DNA of 64,000 bases from contig NZ_JACCFQ010000001.1 in assembly GCF_013410215.1 (NCBI RefSeq), forward strand, positions 2,294,001 through 2,358,000. Direction: 5' to 3'. This document shows, piece by piece, positions 31,128 through 38,114 of this stretch. The DNA is from Nesterenkonia sandarakina (lineage in GTDB: Bacteria; Actinomycetota; Actinomycetes; Actinomycetales; Micrococcaceae). The first letter of the stretch is position 1, and each line of letters opens with the position of its first letter. Both the position numbers and the translations under genes were made by a program. Below the pieces are notes generated by a model. The model saw only the letters and a program-made list of their open reading frames with translations, ran no database searches and was not told the origin of the DNA.

Positions 31128-31637
31128 TCAGTACCAGGCGGCCGAGAACTCCGGACGGTGCTTCTGAGGGGCGGAGGGTCGTGCGAGGAGAAGAAGCAGC
31201 ACCAGCCATCCCACCAGGGGGATGAGTCCCAGGAGAGACATCGACCCGGGAAGTCCAGAATCGTGGAGCCGGCGCCAGGTGAGCGCGAGCAGCGGGATGA
31301 CGGTGAGCGCCGCGATGAGCAGATGCAGACCGAGGATCGCCGCGGCGAACACGGCGCCGAAGCCTTCGAGCCAGATGCCGGGGGAGAACCCAGCGACTCC
31401 GAAGAGGTCCTGCGCGTCGGTGACCATATCTTCGGCGAAGAGCGTGCTGATGGTGATGATCGCTGTCACGCCGATGGCGGTGTGCACGAGGATCAGGAAC
31501 AGGAAGGGCCACCAGAACTCCGGACGGGTGGAGTAGCCCCGGAACTGGATGTAGTTCTCCAAGAAGGAGGAGAGCGTGGCGTCTGGTCCGGAAGCATCGA
31601 TCATCGGCGAGGTGATCTCGCCGGCGTAGAGCTGCAT
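31128..31637 (-). CDS. DUF805 membrane protein
   Basis: 169-residue membrane protein of the DUF805 family, whose role is unknown. The family signature is visible: an N-terminal YIQFRGYSTRPEFWWPFLF segment, and near the C-terminus LTWRRLHDSGLPGSMSLLGL followed by another hydrophobic stretch. A second DUF805 gene lies at 51997-52509. It converges with the flavodoxin gene and is divergent from the SOS-controlled dnaE2 unit. Confidence 0.83.
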   Translation of the reverse strand: MQLYAGEITSPMIDASGPDATLSSFLENYIQFRGYSTRPEFWWPFLFLILVHTAIGVTAIITISTLFAEDMVTDAQDLFGVAGFSPGIWLEGFGAVFAAAILGLHLLIAALTVIPLLALTWRRLHDSGLPGSMSLLGLIPLVGWLVLLLLLARPSAPQKHRPEFSAAWY

Positions 31638-31823: not shown

Positions 31824-31839
31824 TCGAATGTATGTTCGA
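31824..31839. promoter_or_regulatory. LexA-binding SOS box
   Basis: TCGAATGTATGTTCGA at 31824-31839 matches the actinobacterial LexA site TCGAAC-N4-GTTCGA with one change in the left half. It lies 71 bases before the DUF6504 gene and its dnaE2 partner, so these genes should be induced by DNA damage. The divergent DUF805 gene at 31637 is also in reach but is not expected to be SOS-controlled. Confidence 0.85.
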
Positions 31840-31910
31840 ATACGATGAGGCTCCCGGGCTTCCCATCGGCTTCGTCATACCTCTTAGAGACACGAAAGAG
31901 GAGCCTGCCC

Positions 31911-32261
31911 ATGTCCACCGTTATTCGTCCCGAAGCCGACCGAGCACCCCGCCGCGGAGCGGTGACGCTCACCGAATCCATCGATATTGAATGCGACGAG
32001 CAGTTCCTGCCCCATCGGGTGATCTGGAAAGAGCGGAGGCACCTCGTGGTCGAAGCACCGGTCCGCTGGTACCAGCGGCGCAGCTGGTGGGTGGAGGAGC
32101 CTCGCGCAGAGCGCGGTCGCCCTGGACTGGTGGCCCATGAGATGTGGCGGCTGCAGGTCCAGCTCGAAGCCACCTCCCGCACCGAGGTCCCCGAGGTGCA
32201 GACCATCGATGTCAGCCGGCATCTGGCCTCCGGGCGCTGGCGTCTGGTCCGGGTCCATTGA
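31911..32261 (+). CDS. DUF6504 family protein, dnaE2 partner
   Basis: 116-residue protein of unknown function in a family that typically lies in actinobacterial mutagenesis cassettes. The core shows FLPHRVIWKERRHLVVEA, RWYQRRSWW, then MWRLQVQL and a terminal RWRLVRVH. ATG 31911 follows AAAGAGGAG. The gene sits 71 bases downstream of an SOS box and its TGA overlaps the TTG start of dnaE2. Usually imuB is found beside this gene; here no Y-family-like gene is present in the neighbourhood. The biochemical role (probably in mutasome assembly) is inference. Confidence 0.75.
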   Translation: MSTVIRPEADRAPRRGAVTLTESIDIECDEQFLPHRVIWKERRHLVVEAPVRWYQRRSWWVEEPRAERGRPGLVAHEMWRLQVQLEATSRTEVPEVQTIDVSRHLASGRWRLVRVH

Positions 32262-35200
32262 CCTTCACCCACCTGAACGTGGCCAGCTCCTTCAGCAGCC
32301 ACTACGGCACCAATCGCCCCCAGGAGCTGGTCGCGGCCGCTGCGGCAGATCAGATGACGGCGCTGGCCCTCACCGATCGGGACGGCCTCTACGGGGCGGT
32401 CAAGCACATCGGTGCCTGCATCGACTTGGGCATCGCACCGATCCTCGGGGTCAGTCTTGTGGTGGAGGACCGCGGCCGTGCCGTGGTCCTGGCCAGCAAC
32501 GCCTCCGGCGGGTATGCGGCACTGTGTCGGCTGATCTCCCGGGCTCATGAACGCCCGCAGGGTGAGGCGGCCCGGGTGAGCCTGCAGGACCTGGCCGAGT
32601 GTGCTGCCCCCGGGGAGGGTGAGGTGCGCCGTCGTCTGTTCGTCCTGGCCGGACCGGAGAGTGAGGTCGGCGCTGCGGCGGCCTCTCGGGACTACCGCAG
32701 CACGCGGGCGCTGCTGCGCCAGTGGCGTGAGGTGCTCGGCGAGGCGCTGCGGGTGGAGGTCGTCTCGCATCTGGCGCCGCCGGGGGAGGCGCTCTCCACT
32801 GCGCACGCCGTGCGGATGCTCAGCGCGGCTCAGGTCAGCCGGGTCACCCCGGTGCTGACCAATGCGGTGCGGCTGCTGAGCACCGATGAGGCGGCCACCG
32901 CCGATGTGCTCGACGCCGTGCGGGTGCTCTCCGACCTGCACAGCACCTCCGCGCTGCAGCCCACCGATCAGGGCTGGCTCAAGCCCGCCGCCGCGATGAA
33001 GGCGCTGGCCGCGGAGATCTGCGCGGCGAGCACCACTCCGATCTCGGCTGAGGAGCTGCTGGCCCACACCGAGGCGCTGGGCCGGCAGTGTCAGCTGGAT
33101 CCGGTCCAGGACATGGGCTGGGGTCAGCCCAAGGTGCCCGAGACCTCCGTCATCGGGATCGAAGGTGATCCGGATCAGGAGCTGCGTGCCCGCTGTGAAG
33201 CCGGTCTGGCTGAGATGCTCGCCCAGGAGGAGATCGAGCGGCAGGCCGAAGAGAGCCGCGCCCCTGGAAGCGCGGGAAGCTCAGAAGGCCCGGTGAACCC
33301 GTCGGGCGCGGGGAGCCCGGGAAGCTCAGAAGGCCTGGGAGGCCCAGAAAACCCCGCGGGCAGGGGAGTCGCCCGGGCGCGCCTGGAGCATGAGCTGAGC
33401 ATCATCGCCGATCTCGGCTTCGCCCCCTATTTCCTGACCGTGGCCGAGGTGGCCCGGCTGATCCGCGAGATGGGGGTCCGTGCCGCGGCGCGCGGCTCGG
33501 CGGTCTCCTCGCTGGTGGTCCACGCGCTGGGGATCAGCCCCATCGATCCGTTGCAGCACGGCCTGATCTTCGAGCGTTTCCTCTCTCGGAGGCGCTCCAC
33601 CCTGCCCGATATCGACATCGATGTGGAGTCCTCTGAGCGGCACCGGATCTACCGGGCCGTGTTCAAACGCTTCGGTGCCCATCGGGTCACCTTGATGAGC
33701 ATGCAGAACGCGTACCGGATCCGCGGCGCGGTCCGGGATGCCGGGCTCGCACTGGGACTCCCTGAGGAGGAGATCGATCAGCTTGCGGAGATCATGTGGC
33801 GTTTTCCCGCCCGGGAGTTCCGCCGCGCGCTCGAGGAGAAGCCCGAGCTGCAGAGCCTGGCCGAGCGGATCGAGACCGAGCGCAGCTCCGGGCGTCAGCA
33901 GCTGGACCTGCTGGTGGATCTCTCAGAGCGGTTGGACCGGCTGCCCCGGCACATCTCCACCCATCCCTGCGGGGTGATCCTGGGCAACAACGATCTGCTC
34001 AAGCTCACCCCGGTGGAACGCTCCGGGGTCAACGGGCTGCCGATGAGCCAGTTCGACAAGGACGACATGGACCCGATGGGGTTCATCAAGCTTGATGTCC
34101 TGGGGGTGCGGATGCAGTCGGCGATCGCATACGCCCTGACCGAGCTCGAACGCACCACCGGGGAGGTCATCGACATGGTCAAGGACGTGGACTATGCCGA
34201 TCCTGCGACCTTCGCGATGATCCAATCCACCCATACTCTGGGCTGTTTCCAGATCGAGAGCCCGGGGCAGCGCGAGCTGATCGGGAAGCTGGTGCCCAAG
34301 ACGCTCAACGACCTGGTGGTGGACATCTCGCTGTTCCGTCCCGGACCTATGGGATCGGGCATGGTCAAGCCCTATCTGGAACGCCGTCACGGCTATGAGG
34401 CGGTGAGCTACCCGCACCCTGATCTGGCGCCGATCCTCGATGAGACCTACGGGGTGGTGGTCTTCCACGAACAGGTGCTGCGGATGTTCGACACGATGAC
34501 CGGGTGTGGTCTGGACGTCGCCGATGAGCTGCGCCGGGCGATGAGCAAGGACAAGTCCGGGCCGGTGGAGATCTTCTTCCGCGAGGAGGCGGCCAAGCGT
34601 GACTACTCCGCTGCGGTGATCGATCGCGTCTGGGAGATTCTGCTCAGTTTCGGCAGCTTCGGCTTCTGCAAGGCCCATGGGGCGGCGTTCGCGGTGCCCA
34701 CCTACCAGTCGGCGTGGCTGAAGACCCACCACCCGGCCCACTTCCTGTGCGGTCTGTTCGAACACGACCCGGGCATGTACCCGCTGCGGCTGCTGGTCTC
34801 CGAGGCCCGCCGGCTGAAGATCCCGCTGCTGCCGATGGACGTCAACCGTTCCACCAGCAGCTATCACGTGGAGGCGACCTCGGTGGCGGGGCTGCCGGTA
34901 TGGGGGATCCGGATGTCGCTGGTCGGGCTGAAGGGGATCTCGAAGGCCGAGCTGCGCCGGATCGAGGCGGAGCAGCCCTTCGCCTCCCTGGCGGATCTGC
35001 GCGACCGGGCCCGGTTGAAGCGCTCCACGCTGCGAGATCTGGCCAAGGTGGGGGCCCTGGACGCGCTGCTGCCGGAAGGGCGGAAGCACCGGAAGGACCT
35101 CATCCAATGGGTGGAGTCCACCAACCTGGAATACGCCAAGAAGCTGCCGGCCCGCCAGGTCCAGGGCCAGCTGCCCCTGCCCATCGGGGATGTGGAGATC

Positions 35201-35662
35201 GCGAACCTGCCCACCGGAGCAGGGGAGCTCGCGGTCCAGGAGATCGTCACCACTGAGCTGGACCTGACCTCGCTGGACACCAGCGGGCATGTGATGGATA
35301 TCCACCACCCGGTGCTTCAGGGGGCCGGGGTCAGCTTCGCTGAAGACCTGCTCTCCCTGCGCAACGGCGCCACCGTCCGGGTGGCCGGCATCCGGGTGGC
35401 CACCCAGACCCCGCCGATGGCTTCGGGCAGGCGGGTCGTGTTCATCACTCTCGACGACGGCACCGGCTGCGTGGATCTGAGCTTCTTCGAAGAGGCGCAG
35501 CGCAACACCGGGGAGTGCCTCTTCGCGGCGAAGATGTTGATGGCCGAAGGCACCATCCGGCGCACCGGCCCCCGGGCGGTCACCGTGCAGGCGACTCGAG
35601 CCTGGGATCTGCGAGGGGAGACGGTGCCGGGGCGGCTTCCCGCCGCAGCAGGCTCTCTTTGA
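32258..35662 (+). CDS. dnaE2: Error-prone DNA polymerase III alpha subunit DnaE2
   Basis: C-family polymerase for damage-induced translesion synthesis, 1134 residues from the TTG at 32258, which overlaps the DUF6504 stop. The PHP domain at the N-terminus looks metal-poor: the first motif reads THLNVASSFS where HxH is expected, and TDHDG reads TDRDG. The catalytic palm is intact: PDIDID with Asp451 and Asp453, and the third Asp in DPMGFIKLDVLG. A Ser/Gly-rich insertion (repeats of GSSEG) interrupts the region around residue 350. A C-terminal OB fold (VRVAGIRVATQTPP) and HhH are present. An upstream frame to 32144 is open but overlaps DUF6504 fully. Confidence 0.9.
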   Translation: MTFTHLNVASSFSSHYGTNRPQELVAAAAADQMTALALTDRDGLYGAVKHIGACIDLGIAPILGVSLVVEDRGRAVVLASNASGGYAALCRLISRAHERPQGEAARVSLQDLAECAAPGEGEVRRRLFVLAGPESEVGAAAASRDYRSTRALLRQWREVLGEALRVEVVSHLAPPGEALSTAHAVRMLSAAQVSRVTPVLTNAVRLLSTDEAATADVLDAVRVLSDLHSTSALQPTDQGWLKPAAAMKALAAEICAASTTPISAEELLAHTEALGRQCQLDPVQDMGWGQPKVPETSVIGIEGDPDQELRARCEAGLAEMLAQEEIERQAEESRAPGSAGSSEGPVNPSGAGSPGSSEGLGGPENPAGRGVARARLEHELSIIADLGFAPYFLTVAEVARLIREMGVRAAARGSAVSSLVVHALGISPIDPLQHGLIFERFLSRRRSTLPDIDIDVESSERHRIYRAVFKRFGAHRVTLMSMQNAYRIRGAVRDAGLALGLPEEEIDQLAEIMWRFPAREFRRALEEKPELQSLAERIETERSSGRQQLDLLVDLSERLDRLPRHISTHPCGVILGNNDLLKLTPVERSGVNGLPMSQFDKDDMDPMGFIKLDVLGVRMQSAIAYALTELERTTGEVIDMVKDVDYADPATFAMIQSTHTLGCFQIESPGQRELIGKLVPKTLNDLVVDISLFRPGPMGSGMVKPYLERRHGYEAVSYPHPDLAPILDETYGVVVFHEQVLRMFDTMTGCGLDVADELRRAMSKDKSGPVEIFFREEAAKRDYSAAVIDRVWEILLSFGSFGFCKAHGAAFAVPTYQSAWLKTHHPAHFLCGLFEHDPGMYPLRLLVSEARRLKIPLLPMDVNRSTSSYHVEATSVAGLPVWGIRMSLVGLKGISKAELRRIEAEQPFASLADLRDRARLKRSTLRDLAKVGALDALLPEGRKHRKDLIQWVESTNLEYAKKLPARQVQGQLPLPIGDVEIANLPTGAGELAVQEIVTTELDLTSLDTSGHVMDIHHPVLQGAGVSFAEDLLSLRNGATVRVAGIRVATQTPPMASGRRVVFITLDDGTGCVDLSFFEEAQRNTGECLFAAKMLMAEGTIRRTGPRAVTVQATRAWDLRGETVPGRLPAAAGSL

Positions 35663-36164
35663 TCTGAACCCCGTAACGGAAGCCACCGAGCCCGCCGTCG
35701 GTGCGGATGACCCGATGACAAGGCACGAAGAGCGCCGCTGCGTTCATCGCACAGGCCCCGGCCGCTGCGCGGACGGCCGCCGGGCGTCCCGCGCGCTGCG
35801 CGTAGCTGGCGTAGGTCAGCGGGGCGCCCGGTGCCACCTGGCGCAGCACTTCCCAGGCCTGTTCCCGGAACGGACCGGAGCGCTGTGCCACCGGCACGCT
35901 GTCCAACGCCGCGGTGTCCCCGGCGTAATAGTCCGCCACCGCCTCAGCGGCATGGGTGAGCACCGACCCTTGCCCCGGCACGGCAGCCTGGTCGCCCGGT
36001 GCAGGGTCTGCCGCGCGCAGCGTCGGGTGGATCAACTCGATCAGGGACGCGATGTCCCAGGTCCAACCCGAGGCCAGGACATGGCTGTCATTGGCCACCA
36101 CGCTGAAAGGTCCATCGGGTGTGCTGAAGCTGGCGTAGTGCAGGGAGTTCTGTGGGGGTGTCAT
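35580..36164 (-). CDS. ogt: Methylated-DNA--protein-cysteine methyltransferase
   Basis: 194-residue suicide enzyme that removes O6-alkyl groups from guanine onto its own Cys149 in FVPCHRVI. The DNA-binding helix region QAWEVLRQVAPGAPLTYASYA and the following AGRPAAVRAAAGACAMN are typical. ATG 36164 overlaps the stop of the Ada-AlkA gene (ATGA), so the two are coupled. The last 20 or so residues read into the 3' end of dnaE2 on the opposite strand: the two genes overlap tail to tail by 83 bases. Confidence 0.92.
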   Translation of the reverse strand: MTPPQNSLHYASFSTPDGPFSVVANDSHVLASGWTWDIASLIELIHPTLRAADPAPGDQAAVPGQGSVLTHAAEAVADYYAGDTAALDSVPVAQRSGPFREQAWEVLRQVAPGAPLTYASYAQRAGRPAAVRAAAGACAMNAAALFVPCHRVIRTDGGLGGFRYGVQIKESLLRREAAPAPSPLADPRLESPAR

Positions 36165-37906
36165 GGAGCGGTGTCCTTTCGGGTATGTCCTGGCTGGCGC
36201 TCGGCTGCAGTGGCTGCGGCGTGCCAGAGGTGCATTGCGGCGTAGGAGCGCCACGGGGACCAGCGTTGGGCATGGATCTGGAGCCTGCGGTGCGCGGCGG
36301 TCTTCTTCAGCTCCGGGTCCAACAGACCGAGCATCTTCGCGCTGCTCAGCAGGACGACGTCGCCGCTCATCCAGACATCGGGGTCACCGAGCACGCGCAG
36401 CATCAGGTAGGACGCGGTCCAGGGTCCGATGCCGGGCATGGCGGTCAGTGCCTCGTGGAGCTGCCGGGTGTCTGCCCCCTGGTGCAGATTGAGTTCACCG
36501 CTGGCCGCCGCGGCCGCGGCGCGGCGGACAGTGGCGATGGAACGAGCGGGAAGCCGCAGCGGTCGCTGCGGATCCAGCGCGACCGGGTGTGTCGAGTCGG
36601 TGCGCGAGGGCGGCGCCGGGACCCCGGCGAGGATCTCCTCCGGGGTGGGGAAGAGCCGGTACAGGCCGGCGAAGGATGATTCCTGCGCTGTGCCCAGCGC
36701 GTCGACCAGCCGGGTGAGGTGGGAACGGGCCGCCGCCACCGAGATCTGTTGACCTACGATGGCGCGGATCAGGTACTCGGGACCGTCTGCGGTGCCCGGG
36801 ATGCGCAGTCCCGGGGCCCGGGCGACCAGGGGAGCCAGCACGGGGTCAACGGAGAGGGCGTCCTGGACAGCGAGCGGGTCTGCGTCGAGATCGAAGAGCC
36901 GCCGCGCCACGGCGACGGCGACCGGAATGTCCGTCCAGGCGCTGAGCTCGCACTCCAGGTGCAGCTGCCAGTCCAGGCTTCGCGGCGCTGGTTCCTGCCC
37001 GGCGGGGACTGCTGAGGGCACGGTCGCTGGTGCTGGCTCTGGTGAGAGTGCCGGGCCCGGTGACGGTCTGCGCTGAGCCGGGGAGGTCTGGACTGGAGTC
37101 GCGGTGACCTGGATCGCGGCCGGGCCATGGGCCAGCCGCAGGGTCCGCGCGTAGACCAGCGTCTCTTCGTGGAACTGGACGGCCTCCACGCCCGGGATCA
37201 CGCGCTCGGCGAGGAATCTGAAGACTTCGATCGCATTGAACGGGGCCCGCACCGGCAGGTCCAGGCGCAGCGCGAAGGGCTGACCTGGCGAGGACTCCGT
37301 GGTGCCGGGCCCAGGGGGTCCTGCGGGCACGCCAGCGCGATGTGCCCGCCGACGGATCTCACCCGGTGCTGCACCTAAGACGGTGCGGGCGGTGTCGTTG
37401 AACTGGCGGACCGAGGAGAACCCGGAGGCGAAGGCGATCTCGGTGATCGGCAGAGACGTGCTGACCAACAGACTCCGCGCCAGGTGGACCCGGTGGGCAC
37501 GGGCAAGGGCCAGCGGACCGGCGCCTAGTTCAGCACGCAGCGTCCGGTGCAGGTGCCGGCTGCTGTAGCCCAATGTCGCACTCAGGGCGGCCACGCCGCC
37601 GTCGTTCATGGTGCCTTCCCGGATCAGTCGCATGGCCCGCCCGGCCAGGTCCTGTCGGATGTTCCACTCCGGGGTGCCTGGGGCTGCCTCGGGGAGGCAG
37701 CGTTTGCAGGCCCGGTATCCGTTCTCATGTGCGGCGGCGGAGGTGGAGTAGAAGGTGACATTCTGCGGCTGAGGGGTCTGCGCCGGGCAGGATGGGCGGC
37801 AGTAGATCATCGTGGAGGACACAGCGGTGAAGAACTGCCCGTCGAAGCGGCGATCCCGAGACATCACGGCCCGGTAGCGGCGCTGAAACTCGTCCTCCTG
37901 GTCCAT
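36161..37906 (-). CDS. Ada-AlkA fusion: methyl-phosphotriester sensor, AraC regulator and 3-methyladenine glycosylase
   Basis: 581-residue adaptive-response protein. Residues 1-80 form the Ada zinc/methyl-acceptor domain with Cys36, Cys40, Cys67 and Cys70 (MIYCRPSCPAQ and ACKRC). An AraC-type DNA-binding domain follows (LSATLGYSSRHLHRTLRAEL). The C-terminal half is an AlkA-type DNA glycosylase with a helix-hairpin-helix (ALTAMPGIGPWTASYLML) and an Asp in WMSGDVV at the catalytic position. ATG 37906 begins MDQEDEFQRRY; the frame is open to 37987. It should sense methylation damage and activate repair genes, including the coupled ogt. Confidence 0.92.
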   Translation of the reverse strand: MDQEDEFQRRYRAVMSRDRRFDGQFFTAVSSTMIYCRPSCPAQTPQPQNVTFYSTSAAAHENGYRACKRCLPEAAPGTPEWNIRQDLAGRAMRLIREGTMNDGGVAALSATLGYSSRHLHRTLRAELGAGPLALARAHRVHLARSLLVSTSLPITEIAFASGFSSVRQFNDTARTVLGAAPGEIRRRAHRAGVPAGPPGPGTTESSPGQPFALRLDLPVRAPFNAIEVFRFLAERVIPGVEAVQFHEETLVYARTLRLAHGPAAIQVTATPVQTSPAQRRPSPGPALSPEPAPATVPSAVPAGQEPAPRSLDWQLHLECELSAWTDIPVAVAVARRLFDLDADPLAVQDALSVDPVLAPLVARAPGLRIPGTADGPEYLIRAIVGQQISVAAARSHLTRLVDALGTAQESSFAGLYRLFPTPEEILAGVPAPPSRTDSTHPVALDPQRPLRLPARSIATVRRAAAAAASGELNLHQGADTRQLHEALTAMPGIGPWTASYLMLRVLGDPDVWMSGDVVLLSSAKMLGLLDPELKKTAAHRRLQIHAQRWSPWRSYAAMHLWHAAATAAERQPGHTRKDTAP

Positions 37907-38114
37907 GCCTCTATTCCACCTTTCACCGGGGCGGAAAGCTAGCGGGAATCGGACGTGGCGGTCACCCGGGGGAGGAACCCCCGGCATCCCACGCCGCTCA
38001 GCATCCGGTACGCCTGAGAACCGGTGAGGCCCGAGAGATGGTAGACCGTGCCGTCGCGGGTCCTAGACTCGCAGCTACCAGGTGCAGGACCCTACAAGCT
38101 CGGAGATCAGGCAC

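Follow-up and report, generated by a model that had tools for sequence, protein, structure and literature searches.

A LexA-boxed DUF6504-dnaE2 operon of Nesterenkonia sandarakina as a probable minimal translesion polymerase unit of the DnaE2B-[ImuB-C] type

Within a window of 64,000 nucleotides (the whole stretch of DNA analyzed; contig NZ_JACCFQ010000001.1 of Nesterenkonia sandarakina), a small DUF6504-like gene and the polymerase gene dnaE2 lie behind a LexA box. The LexA/SOS box TCGAATGTATGTTCGA (31824-31839, i.e., C1:2325824) agrees with TCGAACNNNNGTTCGA at 11 of 12 positions. It is followed on the + strand by the DUF6504-like gene (31911-32261), which starts with ATG and encodes 116 amino acids, probably a standalone ImuB-C. 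The dnaE2 gene (32258-35662, + strand; 1134 amino acids) starts with TTG, and both genes share the tetranucleotide TTGA (32258-32261), in which the dnaE2 start TTG (32258-32260) and the stop TGA of the small gene (32259-32261) overlap. The initial annotation, which had described a LexA site ahead of a DUF6504 gene coupled by stop and start to dnaE2 and had noted the lack of imuB beside the unit, was confirmed on both points.

In most descriptions, DnaE2 depends on ImuB. The N. sandarakina genome (3,017,448 bases; 99.92% complete) comprises two contigs, namely a chromosome of 2.91 Mb and a second contig of 103 kb. It was searched with three profiles and yielded no ImuB, while ImuA' was not searched for separately. 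First, PF00817 matched dinB on the chromosome and umuC on the plasmid as the only Y-family genes. Second, a profile built from seven plasmid-encoded ImuB1 proteins matched dinB only. Third, the same was true for a profile of twelve actinobacterial ImuB2 proteins. As positive controls, PF00817 matched 7/7 ImuB1 and 12/12 ImuB2 proteins, and the ImuB2 profile detected full-length ImuB (E <= 7.3e-139) in 26 of the 149 family genomes examined; because of this detection, the negative result is informative. Of the two alternatives offered by the initial annotation, an imuB elsewhere in the genome was rejected since all three profiles were negative, and a reduced mutasome of DUF6504 and DnaE2 was supported.

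Of the 149 family genomes, 110 matched DnaE2B strongly, with a best E below 1e-100, and 39 did not. ImuB2 occurred in none of the 110 DnaE2B genomes as compared to 26 of the 39 others (Fisher p of 1e-19, ignoring relatedness). The 39 include G148, a 430-contig assembly with an ImuB-C match that may be misclassified, and three genomes carrying a dead DnaE2B form (G019, G047 and G091; see below). Within the genus g7, DnaE2B was found in one genome and ImuB2 in five. The pairing of ImuB-C and DnaE2B was near-obligate: every one of the 110 DnaE2B genomes contained an ImuB-C match, and in 99 of 107 placed pairs the two genes shared contig and strand and were no more than 2.7 kb apart (measured from the ImuB-C start to the first listed DnaE2 segment), with the remaining 8 further apart. 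Three genomes (G004, G022 and G036) were left out here because the place of one gene was not listed. Among 80 named dnaE2 loci, the closest of which are from Nesterenkonia (L003-L008; 90-93% identity in the best segment), 76 had the small gene directly upstream of dnaE2, and the L059 genome had a good ImuB-C match elsewhere. DUF6504 matches also occurred in further families of the class. Longer gaps between ImuB-C and dnaE2 were inspected in L231, L232 and L235 (3.2 kb in the last); no search identified the frames in these gaps, and they did not resemble repair genes.

Several loci showed other arrangements. In a more distant genome, a SAV_6107-like HEPN gene (Pfam match on L106, 1825-2283, + strand) lies between DUF6504 and dnaE2, and a similar frame is present in L108. 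On a plasmid of Arthrobacter sp. YA7-1 (NZ_CP110115.1; L104) that was typed as conjugative, DUF6504-dnaE2 adjoins a gene for an SOS response-associated peptidase. More distant standalone ImuB-C-like genes were found with no dnaE recognised nearby (L218, L220, L221, L222, L227 and L228), in L221 near a ParA-like frame.

The exact pattern TCGAAYNNNNRTTCGA occurs five times in the 3.0 Mb of the genome: at the operon, ahead of uvrA, ahead of a radical SAM gene, on the second contig ahead of umuDC, and in a lipoprotein gene region. The box ahead of umuDC (G000:C2:84957-84972; L002, L176) is identical to that of the operon in all 16 bases. Allowing one mismatch gave 33 sites, part of which were looked at individually, as compared to 15 for the reversed control pattern; one of them precedes recA and one ruvA, and given the control count many of the others are probably due to chance. 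The radical SAM gene (L206, 1038-2588, - strand), which has intein-like matches, stands directly behind its exact LexA-type box (G000:C1:2772096-2772111).

The box was conserved along with the gene pair. For 78 loci that carry a DUF6504-type gene, namely the window, an Arthrobacter plasmid and 76 of the 80 named loci, up to 330 bases ahead of the matched domain were scanned and the best box was scored. It fitted 12 of 12 positions in 40 loci, 11 in 31, 10 in 4, 9 in 2 and 7 in 1, i.e., 11 or 12 positions in 71/78 loci. Scores of at least 11 were obtained for 0/1560 shuffled upstream stretches, in which base composition only was preserved, and for 2/312 windows inside dnaE2. In Nesterenkonia sp. 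PF2B19 (L075, 5992-9433), the dnaE2 frame is broken in two, and the upstream region showed no good LexA box.

Judged from profile matches, the small protein probably corresponds to the tail domain of ImuB (ImuB-C) in standalone form. Pfam DUF6504 scored 18.8 bits with it, below the cut-off of 24.2 (E of 0.0019), and matched 56 of its 57 aligned homologues at E <= 0.01. The same family matched 5/7 plasmid-encoded ImuB1 proteins at E <= 10 (best 7.9e-5), at the C-terminus in the one ImuB1 protein displayed. With hhalign, the small protein aligned with the ImuB1 C-terminus over 38 columns (E of 3.6e-5, probability 71.5); the alignment of 57 sequences gave an E of 1.8e-4. The initial annotation had not recognised DUF6504 as the probable ImuB tail. 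The predicted structure of the small protein has seven strands (mean pLDDT 80.6, pTM 0.67). A Foldseek search with this model gave no match at E <= 0.001, and the best VIA-align comparison with solved structures reached a Z of 5.8 (rmsd 3.3, 61 aligned). The lack of a clear PDB relative agrees with the description of ImuB-C in PMC12926913 as a beta-barrel without close PDB structures. Standalone ImuB-C was described earlier (PMC6511836, PMC3765255). Since no paper was found in a literature search for the name DUF6504, the link between DUF6504 and ImuB-C is made here.

The DnaE2 protein comprises PHP, alpha, finger, HHH and OB domains. Its catalytic residues are intact, with the motif PDIDID at residues 450-455 (33605-33622, + strand) and the third aspartate at residue 613 within IKLDVLG (34094-34096, + strand). 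Between the HhH and OB domains lies the clamp-binding-like motif QLPLPI (residues 971-976; 35168-35185, + strand). In a phmmer alignment, QGQLPLPI of this protein is placed opposite GQLDLF of E. coli DnaE (5fku_A), which is the clamp-binding site of the latter. A search for a clamp-binding motif in DUF6504 had been proposed; none was seen there by eye, and the motif is in DnaE2 instead. QLPLx or QLPLxL motifs have been reported for some actinobacterial DnaE2 and likened to the Hda motif (PMC3919608).

The clamp-motif expression was fitted by 56 of 83 DnaE2B rows (the window, the 80 named loci and two plasmid loci). In comparison, it was fitted by 3/7 proteobacterial and 1/10 actinobacterial DnaE2A rows. 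Because some DnaE2A fit it, the motif does not cleanly separate the two types, and such a split was rejected. The SRDF tail, a C-terminal tail type reported for about 77% of DnaE2 (PMC3919608), was found in 6/7 proteobacterial and 7/10 actinobacterial DnaE2A rows and in 0/83 DnaE2B rows, the window among them; at least two of the actinobacterial DnaE2A misses are cut by the locus end. Since it resembles Arthrobacter DnaE2 with the same gene order and lacks the SRDF tail, the protein fits the DnaE2B type, which may carry its own clamp anchor. The premise of the initial annotation, a normal dependence of DnaE2 on ImuB, is valid for the DnaE2A type and would not apply here.

DnaE2 has been classified into the types A, B and X, and DnaE2B has been reported in genomes without ImuA and ImuB (PMC12926913). 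As judged from the ImuB-less genome and the probable standalone ImuB-C gene linked to dnaE2, the unit is a clear member of the DnaE2B-[ImuB-C] module published in 2026 (PMC12926913). With the Arthrobacter alpinus type of this module, it shares Actinobacteria as hosts, an ImuB-less genome and a DnaE2 linked only to standalone ImuB-C, and no difference was established from the description in that source. With the Tessaracoccus type, DnaE2B-[ImuB-C]-PolY-RecA (PMC12926913), it shares DnaE2B and standalone ImuB-C; unlike that type, it has no adjacent Y-family gene. For the lineage of the Nesterenkonia unit, the present analysis documents the box, the clamp-like motif and the mutual exclusion with ImuB2. 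The ImuA-ImuB-DnaE2 mutasome of M. tuberculosis also combines SOS-controlled DnaE2 with an ImuB-C-like domain; in contrast, the Nesterenkonia unit lacks the Y-family body of ImuB and the SRDF tail of DnaE2. Moreover, it carries the clamp-like motif in DnaE2; in the alignment of ImuB2, by contrast, ImuB has a QLGLWG-type stretch, read as its clamp motif.

A natural variant was found in one genus. Three genomes (G019, G047 and G091) contain ImuB2 beside a DnaE2A with PDIDVD and an SRDFR tail and, elsewhere, an ImuB-C gene with a DnaE2B-like frame behind it that spans 941, 952 and 918 amino acids, respectively (L187 5955-8778, + strand; matching frames in L188 and L217). The upstream box of the latter pair fits 11, 10 and 11 of 12 positions. 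The DnaE2B-like frame has lost the catalytic aspartates, which are described as absolutely conserved across the C family (PMC3919608), as well as most of the fingers and the OB domain; it retains the PHP part, HhH and a GQxxLPL motif. Omega was 0.16-0.17 for the PHP part, 0.43-0.46 for the palm remnant, 0.32-0.57 for the HhH-clamp part and 0.66-0.83 for the tail, as compared to 0.05-0.09 for the neighbouring ImuB-C and 0.11 for a live DnaE2B pair (window and L006). In a simulation, 0/500 copies with 30% random substitution kept the frame open. Given this result and the low omega of the PHP part, the dead DnaE2B does not look like a fresh pseudogene. A literature search of titles and abstracts on inactive DnaE or DnaE2 and on pseudopolymerases returned no such protein, and ImuB-C beside a dead, PHP-keeping DnaE2B alongside an intact ImuB-DnaE2A looks new.

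We consider it likely that the two genes form an operon under LexA control that encodes a minimal translesion polymerase of the DnaE2B-[ImuB-C] type, with a self-clamping DnaE2B and with ImuB-C on the PHP domain. Upon DNA damage, LexA would leave the box and both proteins would be made by translational coupling. DnaE2B would act as an active error-prone C-family polymerase in lesion bypass and would reach the beta clamp by its own QLPLPI motif. ImuB-C, a small beta domain, would dock on the PHP domain of DnaE2B and may help to direct or license the polymerase; it would thereby play the part of the ImuB tail in the ImuA-ImuB-DnaE2 mutasome, minus the Y-family body. Docking on PHP is suggested by published AlphaFold models of the M. 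tuberculosis complex, which place ImuB-C there (PMC12926913), and by the dead DnaE2B, which keeps ImuB-C and a PHP part under selection.

Several observations weigh against this interpretation. The hhalign match to ImuB1 is short, and its probability falls to 48 with the larger alignment. Profile comparison of the small protein with actinobacterial ImuB2 gave no significant match, and DUF6504 matched 0/12 ImuB2 proteins; the ImuB-C identity is therefore likely and draws on ImuB1. The surveyed genomes are related and thus not independent samples. Three Sinomonas loci (L028, L030 and L032) have DnaE2B without adjacent ImuB-C; no ImuB-C match was found in the L030 genome (E <= 0.01), and the L028 and L032 genomes had only a weaker one elsewhere, so ImuB-C may be dispensable. 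The strict clamp motif is missed by 27/83 DnaE2B rows, many of which have near variants (L075 is truncated ahead of the region), and a PLPLF motif is found at the same place in 3/7 proteobacterial DnaE2A.

A more far-reaching version is offered tentatively. Since the polymerase may have its own clamp anchor, DnaE2B and ImuB-C could by themselves suffice as a two-protein mutasome, with no need for a Y-family subunit. Because the genus with ImuB-DnaE2A keeps an SOS-boxed ImuB-C with a dead DnaE2B, the contact of ImuB-C with PHP could also be separable from DNA synthesis, and the dead DnaE2B might serve as a regulatory or decoy pseudo-polymerase.

Alternatively, the pair might act with a Y-family protein in trans, i.e., chromosomal DinB or plasmid UmuC, and with RecA, as in Tessaracoccus. 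The genome does contain dinB and a plasmid umuDC under the identical LexA box, a DnaE2B-[ImuB-C]-PolY-RecA group has been described (PMC12926913), and in several more distant genomes (for example, G177, G189 and G195) DUF6504 and a Y-family match share a contig and are a few kb apart. However, dinB is about 320 kb away with no listed box of the TCGAAYNNNNRTTCGA pattern near it, umuDC is on the separate 103-kb contig, and the Arthrobacter-type group is, as far as its description in PMC12926913 goes, linked to ImuB-C only. Help in trans is thus rather unlikely. A role of ImuB-C as a DNA-damage sensor or DNA-binding subunit instead of a polymerase-docking adaptor, which Aravind et al. suggested for the ImuB-C superfamily (PMC3765255), appears slightly less likely still: the distant ImuB-C-like genes away from any polymerase would fit it, but the closeness to DnaE2B in 99 of the 107 placed pairs, the PHP part retained beside ImuB-C in the dead DnaE2B and the published models with ImuB-C on PHP (PMC12926913) speak against it. 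Recent decay of a local imuB into the small gene is very improbable and was rejected as an explanation; the gene does resemble the ImuB C-terminus only, yet the same short gene stands, mostly boxed, in the 76 named loci across Micrococcales and has DUF6504 relatives in further families. A usual cassette that is merely split, its imuB and imuA' lying at other places of the sequenced genome, although such splits are known in mycobacteria (PMC6511836), is hardly credible given the controlled negative ImuB searches and the absence of ImuB2 from all 110 DnaE2B family genomes.

Upstream of the small gene lies a divergent DUF805 gene (31128-31637, opposite strand), as the initial annotation had stated. 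Downstream and convergent with dnaE2 are genes for an O6-methylguanine methyltransferase (35580-36254, - strand), which overlaps the 3' end of dnaE2 by about 80 bases, and for a protein of the Ada-AlkA type (36161-37987, - strand). The 103-kb contig carries a ParA-like frame in addition to umuDC.

The proposed mechanism can be put to the test through the clamp-like motif, the dead DnaE2B and the mutual exclusion with ImuB2. A lineage whose 110 examined DnaE2B genomes all lack ImuB2 and contain an ImuB-C match offers a two-gene system for probing the role of the ImuB tail, and in the dead DnaE2B the PHP/ImuB-C contact would be naturally uncoupled from catalysis. The two-gene system also allows one to ask whether a mutagenic polymerase may reach the clamp alone.

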